DNA of 64,000 bases from Slackia piriformis YIT 12062 (lineage in GTDB: Bacteria; Actinomycetota; Coriobacteriia; Coriobacteriales; Eggerthellaceae), in NCBI RefSeq assembly GCF_000296445.1, contig NZ_JH815198.1:1179114-1243113 (forward strand), written 5' to 3'. Position 1 is the stretch's first letter. Each line of letters begins with the position of its first letter. The position numbers and the translations under genes are program-made. Positions 23,993 to 46,002 of the stretch are shown here, piece by piece. Below the pieces are notes generated by a model. It saw only the letters and a program-made list of their open reading frames with translations, was not told the DNA's origin and made no database searches.

Positions 23993-24360
23993 GGGGGCGA
24001 CTGGTTTCGACATGGTACGTTTGAACTGAGGAGCAGGTCGTGGTCTCCTCGCCACGTTAAACAGGGGTACCGTCAAGTTAATTGGCAAAGCTAAAACTCA
24101 GAGCGCTCCGGCGCTCGCCATGGCTGCTTAATTTACGCAGCCCGTCAACCTCGGGTTATCCCCGGCTCGAGCGCGACGTCATGTTAGGGGATTGCGTCAA
24201 AGCACGTAGCCTGTATGGCTTTGGCTAAGATCGAACGGGCTAGAACCGACAACGCGTGTCCGTAGGCTGCGTCGGTTTGAATCTCGACCACGGAATAAGC
24301 TTGTAGAGCCTGAGGGATGATGTAGTATGGACCGGAGTTCGATTCTCCGCGCCTCCACCA
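23993..24360 (+). ncRNA. ssrA: transfer-messenger RNA
   Basis: The 368-base tmRNA rescues stalled ribosomes and tags their products for proteolysis. The tRNA-like ends are clear: 5' GGGGGCGACTGGTTTCGACA, acceptor GGGGGCG paired with CGCCTCC, T arm GGAGTTCGATTCTCC, and encoded CCA. The tag frame ends at TAA 24129-24131 and reads GKAKTQSAPALAMAA if GGC at 24084 is the resume codon; the resume codon is my inference. Partner genes smpB and rnr lie within 4.2 kb on the other strand. Confidence 0.96.
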
Positions 24361-24883: not shown

Positions 24884-25546
24884 CTACTTCAAATAGCGAT
24901 TGATGTCGAGCCCGCCCATGATGTCATCCATGGCTTCTTTGAGCTCCTTCGCCGCAAGAGCGCCTTCGCGAGCAAGCTCGACACTTCCTTTCGCCATGCT
25001 TTTCATCTCGCCTTGCGTCATGCCCATGACGACCACCTTGTCGTCGGGATCGCCCTCCTCTTCGGCGGGACACCAGTCGTAATGTGCGCACGTTTCGCAT
25101 TCGCCGTCGCATCCGGCTTCGTAATACGCCTCCGCCGCGTCCTTGGCAGCCTTCTCCTCTTCGGTAAGCTCCTCCTCAGGCTCTTCCTCCTGGTCGGCAG
25201 GCTCCTCGGGCTCTTCCTCAGTCTGCTCTTCTACGACTTCTTCCTCGTCTTCGAAGTCGTCAGGACACCAGTCGTAGTACGGGCACGTTTCGCACTCGCC
25301 CTCGCACTGCTCGTCGTAGTATTTCTGCCATTCCGCCTGCATGGCGGCATCGTCTTTAGGCTCAAACTTCTCCTTCAGGCGTTGGTATTCCTCATACTCC
25401 CGACGTTCACGGGCTTTTGCCACCCCGCCCTTACGACGGCCTTTCTTGGAACCGCCTTCGTTTTCAAGGTCACCGAACACCGCTTCTTTCGCGACGTTTT
25501 TCGCAACACGGCCCGCGGTACGCGTAGCCTTCCTGAACAAGCCCAT
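24884..25546 (-). CDS. acidic protein with two identical four-cysteine motifs, function unknown
   Basis: This 220-residue soluble protein was not recognised. The N-terminus is basic and helical (1-60). A cysteine motif, C-x3-C-x2-C-x5-C-P (Cys81, 85, 88, 94 in CEGECETCPYYDWCP), is followed by a very acidic Glu/Pro linker (97-135). A second copy with the same spacing (Cys146, 150, 153, 159 in CDGECETCAHYDWCP) and a helical C-terminus follow. The motifs look fit to bind zinc or an iron-sulfur cluster. It starts 13 bases after the smpB stop with AGGAGGTAATTCTTC upstream, so it is the last gene of rnr-smpB. A link to ribosome rescue or RNA decay is inferred from position only. Confidence 0.75.
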   Translation of the reverse strand: MGLFRKATRTAGRVAKNVAKEAVFGDLENEGGSKKGRRKGGVAKARERREYEEYQRLKEKFEPKDDAAMQAEWQKYYDEQCEGECETCPYYDWCPDDFEDEEEVVEEQTEEEPEEPADQEEEPEEELTEEEKAAKDAAEAYYEAGCDGECETCAHYDWCPAEEEGDPDDKVVVMGMTQGEMKSMAKGSVELAREGALAAKELKEAMDDIMGGLDINRYLK

Positions 25547-25559
25547 GAAGAATTACCTC

Positions 25560-26024
25560 CTATCGCAAACGAGCCTTAAGCGCCCGCTCGATCTCACGCT
25601 TCGAATCACGCTCCGCCATAGAAGCGCGCTTGTCGTAGAGTTTCTTGCCCCGTGCAACAGCGAGCTCGATTTTCACAAGCCCGTTTTGCGCGAAATAGAT
25701 GTTCAAAGGAACCAGGGCCATGCCCCTTTCGCGCGTTTTCTCCTCGAGATAGCGAATCTGATTGCGATGCAACAGCAGCTTGCGCTTGCGATCGGGGTCC
25801 GGATTGGCGATGTTGCCATGCGAATACGGAGCAATGTGCAGATTGTGCAGCCAGACCTCGCCGTGACGGATAAGCGCGAAGCAATCGGTCAGCTGGCAAT
25901 TATTCTCGCGAAGCGAGCAGACCTCCGTGCCGGACAACACGACACCGACCTCGAACGTTTCGAGGATATCGTACTCGTGAAACGCCTTGCGGTTCTTCGC
26001 TATCTGCTTTTTCTCTCGTGCCAC
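25560..26024 (-). CDS. smpB: SsrA-binding protein SmpB
   Basis: This 154-residue protein is the tmRNA partner that fits the tRNA-like domain into the stalled ribosome. It has KNRKAFHEYDILETFEVGVV, LSGTEVCSLRENNCQL, 'IAPYSHGNIANPDPDRKRKLLLHRNQI' and the basic C-terminal tail (KKLYDKRASMAERDSKRE). The GTG at 26024 gives the family N-terminus (VAREKKQIAKNR); an ATG at 26081 would add 19 unusual residues. It lies 84 bases after rnr and 1.2 kb from ssrA on the opposite strand. Confidence 0.95.
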   Translation of the reverse strand: MAREKKQIAKNRKAFHEYDILETFEVGVVLSGTEVCSLRENNCQLTDCFALIRHGEVWLHNLHIAPYSHGNIANPDPDRKRKLLLHRNQIRYLEEKTRERGMALVPLNIYFAQNGLVKIELAVARGKKLYDKRASMAERDSKREIERALKARLR

Positions 26025-26108
26025 GTTGTCGAACTGCCTTTCGTTATCGTGCAAACGCCGTGCTTGCATAGACCGATGCACGGCGCACCATTATACAGGT
26101 TCGCCCGC

Positions 26109-28160
26109 TTAGCGACGAACGCCCCTGCGCTTGCTCTCCAGCAGGATGAAATCGGCCCTGCGCTCGTAAGGAGAAACCGCCGCGATGCGAATGCGCACCC
26201 GCATGCCCAGCCGATAGACCGAGCCGCTGTCGGAACCCGTTAGGGTGCGACGCGCGGCGTTGAGGACGTAGTATTCGTCCCTGTCCCGCAACGACACGAA
26301 GCCTTCGGAAGTGTCGTTCAGGCGAACGAAGAACCCCGAGCTCATGACGCCAGAAATCAAACCCTGAGCCTCTTCGCCTATGCGCGTCTCCAAAAGCTCG
26401 TAGAGCTTGAGCTCTTGCGATTCTCGCGCGGCCACCTCCGCCGTTCGCTCCGCGACCGAAGCATGGTCGGCAATCGCCGCCATGGCGCTTTCGACAGCCG
26501 AGGTTTCTTGGGTCCTCCCGAAAAGCGCGACTTTCACCATGCGATGGACCATGAGGTCGGGATAGCGCCTGATAGGGCTTGTAAAGTGCGCGTACGCGTT
26601 ACTCGCTAGACCAAAATGAGGAGCGCAGCAGTCCTGGTATGCGGCGCGCTTCATGGTGCGAATCATAAGCATAGAGACGAGGTATTCCTCCCTGCGTCCT
26701 TTCGCGTAGGACAGAACTCGCTGGATGGCACGCGGATTGCCAGACGCAAGCGCCGAAAGCGAGACGTGCTTTTCGTAGCCGAACTCCTGGAGAACTGGTT
26801 TGAGCTCGGCCATGTCCGCCGGCGCAGGCTGCTCGTGCGTTCGGTATATGCACGCCACGCCCTGATCGCGCAAAAGGCGCGCCACGGCCTCGTTCGCGGC
26901 AATCATGGCTTCTTCGACGAGCGATGTCGCATCGTTTTTCACGCGCAGATCAACCCCGAGCGGATGGCCGCCCTCATCGAGCGCAACCTTCGCCTCGACG
27001 CTTTCGAAATCGATGCCGCCGCGCTTCACGCGATTCTCGTGCAAAGCCTCGGCGGCCTCGTGGAGCAACACGATGTCGGAGGCGACATCCGAAGCAAGAG
27101 AGCCCCTCAAGCATTCAAGCGCATCGGCGGCGCCTTCAAGATCGCCCCGAAGGTACGCGGAAAGCGCAGACTGCGCCTGACCGTAGGTCAAACGAGCCGC
27201 AGAGCGGATTACCGAGGGATATGCCTTCATGTGAGACACGTTTCCCAACGGATCGACGACCATATCGACCGTCATGGCGCGACGCAGACGGCCAGGGCGA
27301 AGCGAGCAGACATCGTTCGAAAGCTGCTCGGGAAGCATGGGGATGACGCGGTCGACGAGGTATACACTTGTCGCGCGGCGGCGCGCCTCAATATCAAGGG
27401 GTGAGCCCCAGGGCACATAATGCGAGACGTCGGCTATATGAACCCCGAGAAGCAGCCTCCCGTCGCCGAAGGGCTCGATCGAGAGAGCGTCGTCGAAGTC
27501 CTTCGCATCGTCGGGGTCGATGGTAAAGATTCGACGCTTGCTCAGGTCGACATAGCGCGAATCCGAAAGCGCGTCTTCGGCGTCTTCGCGCACCTCCCCC
27601 GCCTGCTGCAAAGCCGCTAAGCCGAAATGGGTCTCCAGCTTATGGCGGGCGACAATCAGGGAAACGTCAATTCCTACATCGCCCTCGTGCCCCAAGACCT
27701 CCTCCACGACACCCTGGGCGGGTTCGCGCCTCGAAGGGTAGACGGTCATGCGAACGCGAACGATATCGCCATTGCGCACATGGGGGGCATCGCTTCTCAG
27801 CGTGAAGATGTCATGTTTGATGCGAGGGTCTTCAGGAACGACGACGCCAAAGGGCTCAGCCACTTCATAACGCCCCACAATGCACTCGTGCGCCCTTGAC
27901 AGGACGCGTACGACACGTGCGGCAGGACGGTTGTTCGAGGCGATCGCAGAACGCGACGAGCGTTGCGAAGCCCCTGGCAGACGCGTCACTTCGACCATAT
28001 CTCCGTCAAACGCGTCGGCGACTTTCGAAGCCGGAATGAAGAACTCTCCTTCGGCGGTCTGGACGAAGCCGAAACCGCCCCCGCAAAGCTCAAGAACCCC
28101 GCGGGGATGGGCGCGCGGGGTTCGTCTTGTATTGGATTTTCGCGATCGAGAACGCGCCAT
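26109..28160 (-). CDS. rnr: ribonuclease R
   Basis: This 683-residue processive 3'-5' exoribonuclease is of the RNB family. It has an N-terminal cold-shock type domain (GVLELCGGGFGFVQTAEGEFFIP), the RNB catalytic core with TIDPDDAKDFDDALSIEPF (metal-binding aspartates), LVEEAMIAANEAVARLL and YAHFTSPIRRYPDLMVHRM, and a C-terminal S1 domain. RNase R degrades structured RNA and the mRNA released by tmRNA. AAAAGGAGTTGC precedes ATG 28160. It sits between ctpA and smpB on the same strand. Confidence 0.95.
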   Translation of the reverse strand: MARSRSRKSNTRRTPRAHPRGVLELCGGGFGFVQTAEGEFFIPASKVADAFDGDMVEVTRLPGASQRSSRSAIASNNRPAARVVRVLSRAHECIVGRYEVAEPFGVVVPEDPRIKHDIFTLRSDAPHVRNGDIVRVRMTVYPSRREPAQGVVEEVLGHEGDVGIDVSLIVARHKLETHFGLAALQQAGEVREDAEDALSDSRYVDLSKRRIFTIDPDDAKDFDDALSIEPFGDGRLLLGVHIADVSHYVPWGSPLDIEARRRATSVYLVDRVIPMLPEQLSNDVCSLRPGRLRRAMTVDMVVDPLGNVSHMKAYPSVIRSAARLTYGQAQSALSAYLRGDLEGAADALECLRGSLASDVASDIVLLHEAAEALHENRVKRGGIDFESVEAKVALDEGGHPLGVDLRVKNDATSLVEEAMIAANEAVARLLRDQGVACIYRTHEQPAPADMAELKPVLQEFGYEKHVSLSALASGNPRAIQRVLSYAKGRREEYLVSMLMIRTMKRAAYQDCCAPHFGLASNAYAHFTSPIRRYPDLMVHRMVKVALFGRTQETSAVESAMAAIADHASVAERTAEVAARESQELKLYELLETRIGEEAQGLISGVMSSGFFVRLNDTSEGFVSLRDRDEYYVLNAARRTLTGSDSGSVYRLGMRVRIRIAAVSPYERRADFILLESKRRGVRR

Positions 28161-28190
28161 GCAACTCCTTTTCACGCCGGAAACGGCAGG

Positions 28191-29441
28191 CTAGACAAGC
28201 GAACCTGCCGTTTCGATGGCAAAGGTTTTCTGATTGTCGTCCGATGCGCCTTCACGCACCGTGACCGTGATATTGGGGGAAACGCCGACGTTGTCGATAA
28301 GATAGCCGTCGGGACTCTTGTAGCGAGCCGCCGTGTAGCGAAGGGCGCCCCCGAAAGAAAGGGGCTTAGTGACCTGGACCGAACCTTTCCCCATGGTTGT
28401 CGTGCCCGTAAGGACTGCGCGGTCGGTATCGCGCAAAGCCGCCGCAAGGACTTCCGCCGATCCCGCTGTGTTGCCGTTCACCAAAACGACCAAAGGAGCG
28501 TCCGTGGCAATATCGCCCGTGACCTGCTTGGTCGTCTTCGCTTCGAGCGTATCGATTTCCACGACAACGCCGCTTCGGATGAACAGCGATGCCACATCGA
28601 CAGCCTTGGTGAGATACCCGCCGGGGTTGTCACGAAGATCGAGCACAAAGGAGTGGGCGCCGCGGGAGGAAAGGTCGTCCAATGCGGAGCGGACAAGCGT
28701 ATCGGAATTCTGCGTCAACTGCTTGAGGGAAATGTAGCCCACGCCATCGACAAGCTGCGTCGTGACGTTGGGTTCTTGATAATCCGAGCAGATCAACGTC
28801 GTAGTGAATTCCTCGCCCTCGGAGCCATCGGACGTCGAAGGCCGCAACCAGGTGATAACAACCGACGAGCCCGCCTCGCGCTGAACGGCGTTGATGGTCT
28901 CCGTTGCCGTCCAATCCTGCGAGCGATCGCCATCGATCGCAACGACCACGTCGCCCTGGCGAACCCCGGCATCCGAGGCGGAGGAGTTCTCGAAGACATC
29001 AAGCGCGAACGCTTTTCCGTTCTGCTCCGAGAAGAACACGCCGACGCCGGGATATTCGTCCGTCGCGACATCGACGAAAGAGGTGTAGCGGGCGTCGTCG
29101 AAATAGCGGGCATAAGCGTCGTCGGTATTCTTTAAGAAAGAATCGAGCACTGCGCGGGTGGTTGCATCGGCATCGTAGGAATCAAGGCTGCCGGAAGAGA
29201 GCATCTTCTCGACCTCATCAAGGCGGGAAGCTACCGCCGAGACCTCGGGAGAGGCGCCCTGGGAAGCCGACGAGGGATCTTTCGCCGCCACGATACCCAG
29301 GCGCTCCATGAGCTCGGCGTTTCCGCGCAGCAAAAAACCGGCGGAAAAAAGAAGGCACGCGGCAATGCAGAGGACCAGCATTCGCAAAATCCTCGCATTG
29401 CGCGTACCCATCTCGATATGTTTGCGTTTTCCGTTGCGCAT
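28191..29441 (-). CDS. ctpA: S41 C-terminal processing peptidase (CtpA family)
   Basis: This 416-residue membrane-anchored serine protease faces the outside. It has an N-terminal membrane helix (20-38), a PDZ domain (about 128-200) and a protease domain with LRDNPGG (269-275), catalytic Ser328 in NGNTAGSAEVLAAAL and Lys352 in TMGKGSVQ. In many bacteria CtpA is encoded after ftsEX and acts on cell-wall hydrolases or other envelope proteins. It follows ftsX by 12 bases. An internal ATG at 29411 could also serve as start. Confidence 0.93.
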   Translation of the reverse strand: MRNGKRKHIEMGTRNARILRMLVLCIAACLLFSAGFLLRGNAELMERLGIVAAKDPSSASQGASPEVSAVASRLDEVEKMLSSGSLDSYDADATTRAVLDSFLKNTDDAYARYFDDARYTSFVDVATDEYPGVGVFFSEQNGKAFALDVFENSSASDAGVRQGDVVVAIDGDRSQDWTATETINAVQREAGSSVVITWLRPSTSDGSEGEEFTTTLICSDYQEPNVTTQLVDGVGYISLKQLTQNSDTLVRSALDDLSSRGAHSFVLDLRDNPGGYLTKAVDVASLFIRSGVVVEIDTLEAKTTKQVTGDIATDAPLVVLVNGNTAGSAEVLAAALRDTDRAVLTGTTTMGKGSVQVTKPLSFGGALRYTAARYKSPDGYLIDNVGVSPNITVTVREGASDDNQKTFAIETAGSLV

Positions 29442-29453
29442 GAAGCTTCGGCG

Positions 29454-30365
29454 CTACACCTTCAGGTAGCGGCGCATGGCGAAAAACGACCCGACGGCAG
29501 CGATGATCAGACCGAATACCAGCATGACCAGATAAATCTGAACATACGTGCTTGCAGACAGATTGATAGGCAGCCACATAAGGGCGTTTGCAACCTGGGG
29601 AAGCGCGAATCGATGGATAAGCTCGATGGAGCCGATAGCCAAGGCGGAGCCGATAACGGCATGCACCACGCCTTCCATAAGGAAGGGCCCGCGAATGAAG
29701 CCGTTCGAAGCGCCGACGAGGCGCATGATGGCAATCTCCTTGCGGCGGGCAAGGATGGCGAGGCGAATGGTGTTGTTGATGAAGACCAGCGCGATGAAGA
29801 TCAGCAAGGCGATCAGCGCTATGCCGATGTAGCGGATGTAGCTCGTCAGGCTGAAGAGACGGTCTACGCTGTCTTCGCCGTATTTGACGCTATCCGAAGG
29901 ATCTTCCGGGTTGTCGCAGATAGCGATGAAATCCTTATCCGCCGCCAAATCGGAGGCGATGGTCTCAACCTGCTGCGGATCCGAAAGCTCGATTTCAATT
30001 GAAGCGGGCAACGGATTGGTGCCGTCGAGCTGATCGACGATATCGGTAGAGCTCATCGAGTTCTGGAAGTTCTCGAGAGCCTGGTCCTTCGTGGTGAAGC
30101 TAACGTTCGCAACGCCGTTGACGCGCTCGAGGTCAGACACAACCGCATCGATAGCGGACTGTTCCGCGTCGTCTGCGACATAGGCCGTGATGGAGACCTT
30201 GTCTTCGACCGACGACACGGTGTTGTTGATGATAGCTCCGCCCATCAGGAAGATGCCGATGATCAAAAGCGAAAGAAAGATGGTGATGATGGAACCCAGC
30301 GATGTGCTCAGATTGCGCGTGAAGCCCGTGAGGGATTCCTTGAAGAAATATATGAGACTAGACAT
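29454..30365 (-). CDS. ftsX: FtsX cell-division ABC permease
   Basis: This 303-residue permease has one N-terminal membrane helix (about 20-45), an extracellular domain (46-165) and three further helices (about 170-195, 220-245, 270-292). It pairs with FtsE and turns ATP hydrolysis into activation of a peptidoglycan hydrolase outside the cell. Its start lies inside the ftsE end (8-base overlap), so the two are coupled. No hydrolase gene (such as ripC) is adjacent; ctpA takes that place. Confidence 0.95.
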
Positions 30366-31374
30366 CGAAACCGTACACTCCCCTGTCCTGGTCGCGGGTC
30401 AGCTGACCGCTGTCAAGCGCGATAACGCGACGACGCATGTTGTCGACCATTTCGCGGTCGTGCGTGGCGACGAGCACCGTGGTGCCCGTGCGATTGATTC
30501 GCTCGAGAAGATCCATGATGCCGCGAGAAGTCTGCGGGTCGAGATTGCCCGTGGGCTCGTCGCACACCAGCAGCGGCGGACGATTCACGATGGCTCGGGC
30601 GATAGAAACGCGCTGCTGTTCGCCGCCGGAAAGCTGGTCGGGGCGCTTATTGAGCTTGTCCTGCAAGCCAACGAGGCGCAAGACCTCGGGAACCTGCGTC
30701 TTGATGACGTGGCGGCTTTTCCCGATTACCTCGAGCGCGAATGCAACGTTTTCGAAAACGGTCTTGTTCGGCAAGAGCTTGAAGTCCTGGAAAACGCAGC
30801 CGATATTGCGGCGCAGATAGGGCACGCGCCAGTTACGCATCGTGCTCAAATCCTCGCCCGCGATGAAGATATGGCCGTCGGTGGGCTTGAGCTCGCGCGT
30901 GATCAGTTTGATAAACGTGGATTTGCCCGATCCGGAATGACCTACCAAAAAGACGAATTCTCCCGCATAGATCTGCAGGGAAATGTCATGCAGGGAGGGC
31001 TTGTTGGGCTGTGCGGGATACACTTTGGTCACATGGTCGAATGTGATAACAGGAGCCCCCATGGGCTGCTGCTGCACATCTTCCACGGAAAGCGTGGGCA
31101 GCGAAGTGGACAGGTCGGGCAAAACGCCCGTTCTACCAGGAGCCTTCGAATGGCTTCCGTTGTGCGCCGGCGCGGAGCCGGGCGTATTCACGGGAGGCAT
31201 GGCGCCCGTGGCCTGAGGGCGGGGGCGCATTGCGCGCTCCGCCGGCACGGCGGGCCTTGAGGTTGCTGCGGCATCTTGCCCAGCGGCCGCATGACGGCCT
31301 TGAGCAGGCGGAACCGCCGGAATGGCGCCCGTCGACTCTTGGGCACGACGCTGCGCGTCGTTCGTGTTCGTCAC
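30358..31374 (-). CDS. ftsE: FtsE ATP-binding protein with long N-terminal extension
   Basis: The protein has 338 residues against about 230 for usual FtsE. The ABC domain is from about residue 108, with Walker [10 protein letters not shown] (145-153), signature LSGGEQQR and Walker [10 protein letters not shown]. The first 105 residues are Pro/Ala-rich and presumably disordered, and repeat a short motif: TGAIPAV (15-21), TGAMPPV (56-62), TGVLPDL (82-88). The extension is in frame with a GTG start at 31374 (CGGAGCATTCT upstream), and no better start exists just before the ABC domain apart from Met105. The motifs may bind a partner or be phosphorylated; that is inference. Confidence 0.93.
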
Positions 31375-33357: not shown

Positions 33358-34452
33358 TTATTGCGAGACACGCCAACGATGGTATCCGATGACGAACTGT
33401 TCTATATCGCCATCGAGAACCGCGTCGACGTTACCCGTTTCAATATTACTACGAAGGTCCTTCACCATTTGGTATGGGTATAGGACGTAATTTCGAATCT
33501 GACTTCCGAAGCTGTTCTCCATCCGCTCGCCGCGCAAGGCGGACAGCTCTTCCTCGCGTTTGCGCCTCTCGAGCTCGTAGAGCTTCGCGCGCAAAACCTT
33601 GAACGCAGCCTCTTTGTTTTGCAGCTGGCTCTTCTCGTTCTGGCACGTCACCACGATACCCGTCGGCGCATGGGTCAAACGCACAGCGGAGTCCGTCGTG
33701 TTGACGCACTGGCCGCCTGGACCGCTCGAACGATAGACGTCGACGCGCACGTCCGCAGGATTGAGATCAACCTCGATGTCATCGCTGGTGACAGGCAGCA
33801 CCTCGACGCTTGCAAACGTCGTCTGGCGGCGTTTTTTGTCGTCCGTCGGCGAGATACGCACCAAACGGTGGACGCCGTGCTCGCTTCTCAGCATGCCGTA
33901 GGCGTTATGGCCTTCGACCTGGATGACTGCGCGGTCAAGGCCGATGCCTTCACCGGCGACCACGTCGAGAGACTTGACCTTCCAGCCTTTCTGCTCGGCA
34001 TAGCGGACGTACATGCGATACAGCATCTCCGTCCAATCCTGGGCCTCGAGGCCGCCCTGACCGGGATTGATGGAAAGGATCGCATCGCTTTCGTCCATTT
34101 CCCCGGAAAACCAGGATTCGATTTCGAATCGCTCCAGCATGGCGGAAAGCCGCTCGAGCGCCGCATCCTTTTCTTCGGCGAATGCGGGGTCTTCTCCGGC
34201 AAGCTCGGCGGCAGCCCGAGCATCCTCAAGCGTGGCAACCGCCTCTTCGTAGCTTTCGACGGCGTTGCGCAGGGTACTGGCCTGACGGGAGACCTCTTGC
34301 GCGCGAGACGTGTCATTCCAGAAGTCGGGAGAAGCGATCTGCTCGTTGAGTTCTTCGAGGCGCCGGGCCTTCTCGTCTATATGAAGCCATATGCGCGCAT
34401 CTGCCACGCGCTTCGACGCCGCTTCGATTTCTTTGGATTCTCTCTCTGCCAT
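33358..34452 (-). CDS. prfB: peptide chain release factor 2
   Basis: The 364-residue RF2 ends translation at UGA and UAA. It has the catalytic GGQ (246-248 in SSGPGGQCVN). It is read in a single frame from ATG 34452, without the programmed frameshift found in many RF2 genes. The codon-reading tripeptide, SPF in most RF2 proteins, reads SPT here (201-203 in VRISPTDDKKRRQTTF). Overall length and the N-terminal helical domain favour RF2 over RF1. It starts two bases after the secA stop. Confidence 0.92.
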   Translation of the reverse strand: MAERESKEIEAASKRVADARIWLHIDEKARRLEELNEQIASPDFWNDTSRAQEVSRQASTLRNAVESYEEAVATLEDARAAAELAGEDPAFAEEKDAALERLSAMLERFEIESWFSGEMDESDAILSINPGQGGLEAQDWTEMLYRMYVRYAEQKGWKVKSLDVVAGEGIGLDRAVIQVEGHNAYGMLRSEHGVHRLVRISPTDDKKRRQTTFASVEVLPVTSDDIEVDLNPADVRVDVYRSSGPGGQCVNTTDSAVRLTHAPTGIVVTCQNEKSQLQNKEAAFKVLRAKLYELERRKREEELSALRGERMENSFGSQIRNYVLYPYQMVKDLRSNIETGNVDAVLDGDIEQFVIGYHRWRVSQ

Positions 34453-43903: not shown

Positions 43904-44761
43904 CTACGCCACCTCGAAAGCTGCGGCATCGCGAGCGAGCGCCGCACCATCGAGCAGGGAAAGCTCGTCCATGAGGTAGGTGGCGAAACTGCCCGTTCCG
44001 CCCTGCATGCGCTCGAGCTTCGCGGCAGCGCGCTGTCCTGCAACGCCCATATGAACGACAGCCGCCAAGGCCGCACCTGCTGCATCCTCCTCACGACGAG
44101 CGATATATGCGCCGGAAAGCGCCGAAAGCATACATCCCGAGCCAGTGATTCGGCCTTGAAGAGGAGAACCGTTGCGAACGGCGAACGCACGGTTCGCATC
44201 CGCCACGATATCGATAGGCCCGGTGATGGCGACGACGCACCCGGCACGCTCGGCAAATTCGCGCGCAAACTGAGCGGCGGTCTCGATATTGGATTCGCCG
44301 ACAATATCCTCAGGATTGACATCGACCCCCTTCGTGGCGCTCGCCGCACCCGCAAGGGCTTTCACCTCGCTCATGTTGCCGCGCACCAAAGCAATCGGAA
44401 GGGTCTCGAGAAGCGACCCCGCAACCTCGGTACGAAGCCTGGAAGCCCCCGCTCCTACCGGGTCGAGAACGATTGGGTGACCAAGATCGGCAGCTTTCGC
44501 TCCCGCCACCTTCATAGACTCGATGCTTCGTTGGTTCAGGGTTCCGATGTTGATGACGAGCGCATCGCAGATGGACGTGATGTCTTCGACGTCGGCAGGC
44601 TCATCGCTCATGATGGGGCTTCCACCTACAGCGAGCACCGCATTAGCGCAGCTTTCCACCGTGACATAGTTCGTGATGCAGTGGACAAGCGGAGCGGTTG
44701 CGCGCACCGAATCGCACGAGGCGGATATGACGTCGTTGATTTCAGACAGAGGCATTGCCAT
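43904..44761 (-). CDS. thiM: hydroxyethylthiazole kinase
   Basis: This 285-residue enzyme phosphorylates salvaged hydroxyethylthiazole. It has PLVHCITNYVTVESCANAVL, NIGTLNQRSIESM, 'VLDPVGAGASRLRTE' and SPLQGRITGSGCMLSALSGA. It is the first gene after the TPP riboswitch; GAAGGGAGAGAAATC precedes ATG 44761. With thiE and thiD it forms a salvage route. thiC, thiG and thiS are not in this window. Confidence 0.95.
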   Translation of the reverse strand: MAMPLSEINDVISASCDSVRATAPLVHCITNYVTVESCANAVLAVGGSPIMSDEPADVEDITSICDALVINIGTLNQRSIESMKVAGAKAADLGHPIVLDPVGAGASRLRTEVAGSLLETLPIALVRGNMSEVKALAGAASATKGVDVNPEDIVGESNIETAAQFAREFAERAGCVVAITGPIDIVADANRAFAVRNGSPLQGRITGSGCMLSALSGAYIARREEDAAGAALAAVVHMGVAGQRAAAKLERMQGGTGSFATYLMDELSLLDGAALARDAAAFEVA

Positions 44762-44767
44762 GATTTC

Positions 44768-44852
44768 TCTCCCTTCGCTGGCATTACCCAAACAGGTTCA
44801 TCGGGTCGGAGCAAATCAGCCCCCTCTCAGCCTGCTTTAGCAAGCTCCCCGC
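44768..44852 (-). promoter_or_regulatory. TPP riboswitch
   Basis: The minus strand reads a classic thi box: GCTGAGAGGGGGCTGA..., then CCGACCCGATGAACCTG and TTTGGGTAATGCCAGCGAAG, ending just before the thiM ribosome site. It binds thiamin diphosphate. The ribosome site GGGAG is close to the aptamer 3' strand, so control of translation is likely (inference). Confidence 0.93.
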
Positions 44853-44860
44853 ATACGCCG

Positions 44861-44866
44861 ATTATA
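44861..44866 (-). promoter_or_regulatory. -10 box of the thiMED operon
   Basis: A perfect TATAAT on the minus strand sits about 10 bases upstream of the first aptamer base, at the right distance for transcription start. A matching -35 is not obvious. Confidence 0.55.
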
Positions 44867-45637: not shown

Positions 45638-45648
45638 AGCACGGCTAT

Positions 45649-45995
45649 GCGGGCCGGACGGTCGCGTGGGATATGCTCCCATGAGGAAAGTCCGGGCTTC
45701 TAGAGGCAGGATGCCGGCTAACGGCCGGGCGGGGAAACCCGACGGAAAGTGCTGCAGAAAAGAAAACTCCCACTGGCGCGAATCGCGTTAAGGGAAAAGC
45801 TGAGAAGGTGCGGTAAGAGCGCACCAGCACGCTGGCAACAGCGTGGCTTGGTAAACCCCATCCGAAGCAAGGGCGAATAGGCATGCAACACGGCGCGCCT
45901 CTCCGTGCATGCGGGTAGCCTGCTCGAGACGTGCGGTAACACACGCCCAAGATAAATGGCCGTCTTCGAAGACAGAACCCGGCTTACAGGCCCGC
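45649..45995 (+). ncRNA. rnpB: RNase P RNA (class A)
   Basis: This 347-base catalytic RNA processes tRNA 5' ends. The closing P1 helix is exact (GCGGGCC with GGCCCGC). Universal core blocks are present: GAGGAAAGTCCGGGCTTC near the 5' end, AACGGCCGGGCGGGGAAACC, GGTAAACCCCATC, and AGACAGAACCCGGCTTAC at the 3' end. Confidence 0.97.
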
Positions 45996-46002
45996 TACGG
46001 CA

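Follow-up and report, generated by a model that had tools for sequence, protein, structure and literature searches.

An acidic protein encoded beside smpB in nearly every Eggerthellaceae genome examined, a candidate helper of ribosome rescue

A small acidic protein, here called X, is encoded beside smpB in nearly every member of the Eggerthellaceae that we examined, and we regard it as a candidate helper of ribosome rescue. X belongs to a protein family of the Eggerthellaceae whose C-terminal helix and acidity are constant and whose N-terminal modules are lineage-specific, and we rate it as a lineage-specific companion of smpB from a family missing in the libraries searched. Descriptions of trans-translation usually list a fixed set of proteins, SmpB and RNase R; if X acts there, ribosome rescue would have an extra regulator in common gut anaerobes (Adlercreutzia, Gordonibacter, Slackia), which raises the question why the SmpB of this family would need an acidic companion. 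The C-terminal helix also gives curators a definable family.

Gene layout and cysteine modules in Slackia

X was picked up in a stretch of 64,000 nucleotides of the Slackia piriformis YIT 12062 genome (hereafter the window), by a sequence-only reading whose range of interest, 24884-26024, takes in X plus most of smpB (Table 1). Among named smpB loci, the nearest to that of the window come from Slackia faecicanis and an uncultured Slackia. That reading described a 220-residue protein with two C-x3-C-x2-C-x5-C motifs of identical spacing separated by an acidic linker, starting 13 nt after smpB in a run ftsE-ftsX-ctpA-rnr-smpB, with ssrA just beyond. The open reading frame and residue positions agree with this description: the cysteines fall at residues 81, 85, 88 and 94 and at 146, 150, 153 and 159, linker residues 96-145 include 27 D/E and 2 K/R among 50, and the intergenic gap spans 25547-25559. 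The upstream genes are found on the same strand, ftsE as an ABC ATPase gene in the ftsE position, and ssrA does lie nearby, 523 nt past X, though on the opposite strand and convergent. A terminator scan between X and ssrA gave no excess over shuffles (9 versus a mean of 7.6). Elsewhere the window holds a TPP riboswitch at 44753-44861 (-), scoring 56.2 bits, just above the cut-off of 54.3, and an RNase P RNA at 45646-46001 (+).

Table 1. Features of the smpB–X region and parts of X, in window coordinates
Feature	Position	Strand	Basis or remark
X CDS (acidic smpB-linked protein, 220 aa, pI 4.3)	24884..25546	-	ORF, ATG start; homologue in 12/12 Slackia genomes
X residues 1-60, basic N-terminal stretch (18 K/R, 9 D/E)	25367..25546	-	composition; predicted helices 3-24, 37-61, low confidence
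Cysteine module 1, residues 81-94, C-x3-C-x2-C-x5-C	25265..25306	-	invariant in 12 aligned Slackia proteins
Acidic linker, residues 96-145	25112..25261	-	poorly conserved except predicted helix 129-147
Cysteine module 2, residues 146-159, spacing as module 1	25070..25111	-	invariant in 12 aligned Slackia proteins
C-terminal amphipathic-helix domain, residues 177-220	24887..25018	-	common to Eggerthellaceae
smpB	25560..26081	-	mechanical GTG start; SmpB domain residues 27-169; PF01668 E 4.5e-58; pI 9.8
rnr (RNase R), adjoins smpB upstream in Slackia	26109..28175	-	ORF + family match
ctpA-like S41 peptidase gene	28191-29441	-	upstream of rnr
ftsX	29454-30365	-	upstream of ctpA-like gene
ABC ATPase gene in ftsE position	30358-31374	-	upstream of ftsX
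prfB	33358-34452	-	farther upstream
ssrA (tmRNA)	23993..24360	+	convergent to X; tag GKAKTQSAPALAMAA

The duplication of the cysteine module is a real internal repeat, the best ungapped 30-residue self-match of X (positions 66 versus 131) having 15 identities where 200 shuffles gave at most 12. A single-sequence search found homologues in 12 of 61 relatives, namely all 12 Slackia genomes and none of the 49 others, and in all 12 the gene follows smpB on the same strand. All eight cysteines are invariant across the 12 aligned proteins, which contain only seven further cysteines in total (hypergeometric P 1.2e-6, given 43 invariant among 220 columns; the value is rough, as columns were treated as independent). 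Mean column identity is highest in module 2, at 0.89, against 0.81 in module 1, 0.77 in the C-terminal 44 residues and 0.55 in the linker. A module profile (A5, built from 24 of 25 distinct modules) was run against 296 genomes of the class and found 18 places, a pair in every one of the nine Slackia genomes and none in the other 287. A thirteenth X with both modules (locus L020) occurs in a g13 assembly, where one 17.6-kb contig (G136:C62, loci L020 and L089) carries two smpB genes, one followed by an X of the g13 type and the other by a Slackia-type X with both modules; the contig is either chimeric or the result of a transfer.

The earlier proposal of a metal-binding partner of the rescue machinery stands in part. 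Slackia does possess an invariant set of potential cysteine ligands, but homologues outside the genus lack both the module and its cysteines; a metal centre therefore cannot be the general function of X and would be at most a Slackia elaboration. One could still imagine, in Slackia only, that each four-cysteine module binds Zn or an Fe–S cluster and so serves as a metal or redox switch on SmpB or RNase R. The full invariance of the cysteines and the high conservation of module 2 are what such a switch would predict, yet the modules are missing elsewhere in the family, and Pfam, NCBIfam and PDB sequence searches with X matched no homologue of a known metal-binding type. We consider this switch very improbable.

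A constant C-terminal helix with changing N-terminal parts

With a whole-protein profile, only the C-terminal part of X matches in other genera, again beside smpB. The DNA behind smpB was then read irrespective of similarity to X. The smpB gene (PF01668) is present in 128 of 138 Eggerthellaceae genomes, from which 60 downstream stretches were taken, representing 43 genera outside Slackia. In 59 of them an acidic open reading frame on the same strand starts -4 to about 190 nt after smpB; starts were assigned mechanically here and frames were shown by acidity or length. The contig of the sixtieth (L085) ends 109 nt after smpB, and this locus is excluded from later counts. Frames were chosen by acidity in this comparison and in that of the C-termini, but not in the linkage counts of the next section (96/98 and 69/71).

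Nearly all of these acidic frames share a C-terminal motif, roughly ITREGVAEATxDMNAIYKDGxxVAxELKxAFDDI, within a conserved amphipathic-helix domain of about 40 residues, outside which X evolves fast. The N-terminal parts beyond Slackia are, by eye, one or two DEDDNEIGFxLLDEDGNEVEYYY modules, DEDGN repeats, coiled coil or plain acidic runs. Acidity is a common property, with a median pI of 4.05 and a maximum of 4.77 (71/71 below 4.8), set against a pI of 9.83 for the SmpB of the window. Since several non-Slackia proteins are acidic from residue 4 onward, we also considered that acidic runs of X might stall or eject ribosomes by intrinsic ribosome destabilization, X synthesis thereby reporting translation stress beside smpB; in E. 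coli, acidic residues among the first 30 amino acids cause such pausing, according to the available excerpts of PMC11282234. However, the N-terminus of X in Slackia is basic, its acidic run begins only near residue 96, and the conserved C-terminal helix would be left unexplained, which makes this reading far-fetched.

AlphaFold2 renders the window protein as separate helices (residues 3-24, 37-61, 66-81, 129-147 and 178-212) at low confidence (mean pLDDT 58, pTM 0.23; linker pLDDT about 43). For L115, a short canonical member, the model contains an acidic three-strand beta-meander at about residues 44-74, with 31 residues at pLDDT of 90 or more, and a helix at 101-141 with pLDDT of about 50-71. 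A Foldseek comparison of the L115 model with the PDB gave a best E of 0.57 among the 250 matches listed, none reaching 0.001. The C-terminal helix is amphipathic, its hydrophobic moment peaking at 102 degrees (p 0.0002 by permutation), and E201, K203, D207 and D208 are among the conserved positions, alongside hydrophobic ones. Conserved charged positions on an amphipathic helix would favour protein docking over a membrane anchor, and the helix reads as better suited to protein contact than to membrane binding. On the SmpB side, three positions are peculiar to the Eggerthellaceae (80 versus 58 sequences), and these are explained equally by shared ancestry.

The sequence-only reading recognised no family, and the searches bear it out: the window protein matches no Pfam family at the curated cut-off and no NCBIfam family at E 0.1, and across Pfam, NCBIfam, PHROGs and the PDB nothing lies above curated cut-offs or convinces by E-value. 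The weak matches were set aside. With the window protein these were Rv3651-like_C (E 0.14) and FeoB_associated (E 0.65) in Pfam, both below cut-off, and a sigma-factor model in NCBIfam (E 0.93); with the 12 Slackia proteins, NP1-WLL (E 0.002 in one), Rv3651-like_C (E 0.014 in three) and UPF0179 (E 0.042 in two). A member with DEDGNE repeats matched SSSPR-51 (E 1.7e-5; 25 bits, cut-off 27) and MucBP (E 5e-4), and coiled-coil-type members gave weak coiled-coil matches. The nitroalkane oxidase structure 3mkh (E 0.003 with profile A1) and designed coiled coils in the PDB (E 0.014 or worse with profile A2) were judged compositional.

Linkage to smpB and turnover of the neighbouring genes

The C-terminal domain profile (A2), to which 28 of 39 C-termini contributed, that of the window protein included, was run against 396 genomes of the class and matches 104. 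Eggerthellaceae make up 98 of these (out of 111 sampled) and the remaining 285 genomes supply 6, with one match per genome except in G088, where two fall within one open reading frame. (Profiles A3 and A4 comprise 20 and 15 proteins, with L105, L108, L110 and L124 omitted.) Among the 98 matches in the family, 96 lie directly downstream of smpB on its strand, 121-915 nt past the SmpB domain; in one exception (G124) smpB and X sit at contig ends, and in the other (G158) X is near smpB on the opposite strand. The 13 Eggerthellaceae genomes without a match comprise seven assemblies that lack smpB (G066, G070, G073, G077, G084, G114, G134), three in which the contig ends within about 320 nt of smpB (G067, G096, G144) and three with a diverged acidic frame behind smpB (G019, G072, G119). 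Outside the family, the one strong match is that in G388 (family f4). It sits on a contig of 3,165 bases (L201, G388:C106) whose smpB and X both resemble those of genus g64, so that contamination is likely; the five others, at E 4.7e-4 to 9.3e-4 in frames of 889-1095 residues, were taken as chance. In a phylum sample of 296 genomes, A2 matched 10 Eggerthellaceae and one marginal case.

The same picture emerges locus by locus. Among 80 named smpB loci, X is found in 21 of the 22 that belong to the Eggerthellaceae or are placed with them (20 of 21 on the smpB strand), the one without it (L105) ending 229 nt after smpB, and in none of the 58 others (Collinsella, Olsenella, Bacillota and others). 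Because some genomes are represented by both a named and an unnamed locus (L102, for example, is G006), a set of 89 loci was not independent; recounted with one locus per genome, X follows smpB in 69 of 71, each time on the same strand as smpB. The linkage is thus stronger than the sequence-only reading had guessed, and the spread it envisaged, across the Coriobacteriia, proves too wide: one probable contaminant aside, X is seen in Eggerthellaceae only. For the family at large, the g13 contig aside, we dismissed the idea of a mobile or horizontally spread gene, given one family and one position, and plasmids and phages gave no match to the window protein at E 0.01. In Adlercreutzia agrestimuris (L110:2390-4158), X and the intervening tmRNA gene are both reversed relative to smpB, as if an X–ssrA block had inverted, and X is likewise reversed in G158 (L202, G158:C4:4000-9500).

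The genes on either side change more freely. Directly upstream of smpB lies rnr in 10 of 12 Slackia loci but in none of 20 named non-Slackia Eggerthellaceae loci, 19 of which have X; the special tie to RNase R that had been suggested for X finds no support here, as the smpB–X pair persists where rnr is not the neighbour. By tblastn, an M42 peptidase gene (PF05343) precedes smpB in 15 of these 20 loci (L104-L123). X often sits between smpB and ssrA, where many other bacteria have nothing (L144 to L147, for example), and at 37 of the 69 X-bearing loci a tmRNA gene lies no more than 500 nt past X, a lower bound, many flanking stretches being short. The tmRNA tags at family loci, counted from unaligned ARAGORN predictions, end in MAA in 32 of 46 (ALAMAA, PAAMAA) and in ALAA in 12. 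A different protein, flavin-reductase-like by eye and sometimes with a rubredoxin-like tail, follows smpB in Collinsella, Olsenella and Atopobiaceae loci (L126, L130, L133, L136 and others).

Two readings turn on this arrangement. In the first, which is the main rival to a role beside SmpB and quite conceivable though short of probable, X is an operon passenger with a job unrelated to trans-translation, for example that of a cytoplasmic stress or envelope protein, in a gene order fixed early in the family. The retention of the M42 gene beside smpB shows that the surroundings are conserved in general, which weakens any argument from linkage; the rapid evolution of X apart from its C-terminal helix fits as well. 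Against this, the smpB–X pair survives a change of both neighbours, whether rnr or M42 lies upstream and whether ssrA is near or not, and X was found parted from smpB only by a contig break, inverted copies still lying nearby. In the second reading X is an adaptor or tether, much as SspB is for ClpXP: the C-terminal helix would grip SmpB or tmRNA, and the variable N-terminal modules would recruit RNase R, a protease or the membrane. Its constant helix with exchangeable modules and its long, acidic, probably flexible linkers are the architecture one would expect, yet a recruiting module should be the conserved part and here it changes between genera, and rnr is no constant neighbour of smpB. 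We consider the adaptor reading unlikely.

A possible acidic partner of SmpB and its known counterparts

Linkage in 96 of 98 and 69 of 71 loci makes a role beside SmpB a fair suggestion rather than a result, and we put the chance that X acts in trans-translation at about even. Our preferred reading, held tentatively, is that X is a dedicated acidic partner of the basic SmpB, docked via its C-terminal helix, that shields or tunes the RNA-binding surface of SmpB. We envision that X would be made beside SmpB from one shared message, that its helix would dock on SmpB or on the SmpB–tmRNA particle, and that its acidic part would cover or adjust the basic surface, giving way when tmRNA or the ribosome takes its place. 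The paired cysteine modules of Slackia would probably bind metal (Zn or an Fe–S cluster) and may stiffen the acidic arm or make it redox-sensitive. Linkage that outlasts both neighbours, the opposite charges of X and SmpB and the amphipathic helix all point this way. Polyanion binding by SmpB would also have a precedent, as the excerpted text of PMC12345225 counts SmpB and RNase R of E. coli among the proteins identified as binding polyphosphate.

Several points count against such a partner. Elsewhere among bacteria SmpB is used with no X; the genes around smpB generally keep their order in this family, so linkage proves little by itself; and the AlphaFold2 support for X is weak. Where X is inverted, in L110 and G158, it cannot share the smpB message. 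A more specific version, in which X is a single-copy acidic guard of SmpB whose invariant helix docks on SmpB or the tmRNP while the N-terminal arm is freely exchanged, with a metal-binding pair in Slackia, seems to us possible but rather doubtful. Searches of the open-licence literature returned no paper on the X gene, none on smpB in Eggerthella and none relevant on tmRNA in Slackia; were X such a guard, it would be a trans-translation component not described in the papers found.

Comparison with known systems sets X apart. The backup rescue factors ArfA and ArfB are basic, ribosome-binding proteins, ArfB with a GGQ release domain, and X, at pI 4.3 and with no release-factor domain in the Pfam scan, does not resemble them. 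Cysteine patches that hold [4Fe-4S] clusters, C-x2-C-x5-C in Cas4/AddB and CxxxCxxC in radical-SAM enzymes, share parts of the spacing C-x3-C-x2-C-x5-C, but X has no nuclease or radical-SAM domain and no Pfam match, and it places four cysteines within 14 residues, twice. RNase R is a common neighbour of smpB and a known physical partner of tmRNA–SmpB (PMC4131195, in the portions available). Like X it adjoins smpB in Slackia, on the upstream side, but it is an enzyme, and X is the constant neighbour where rnr is not. The same 2014 survey of smpB neighbours, in those portions, tallied Pfam families and tmRNA, and genes outside any Pfam family would therefore be expected to go uncounted there.

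The ratA–rnfH unit is a conserved neighbour of smpB in beta- and gammaproteobacteria, and in the available parts of PMC1779556 and PMC4131195 an influence on trans-translation was proposed for it from neighbourhood alone. The products differ: RnfH is a ubiquitin-like beta-grasp protein from a divergently transcribed unit, X lies on the smpB strand and consists of a helix with acidic modules, and Pfam scans at the limits used found neither an RnfH beta-grasp nor a RatA START domain in it. The predicted folds of X, helices in the window protein or a three-strand meander plus helix in L115, would likewise be unlike those of RnfH and RatA. As far as those sources go, RnfH/RatA is nevertheless the nearest parallel, for there too the gene of a small protein has been kept beside smpB across a lineage.
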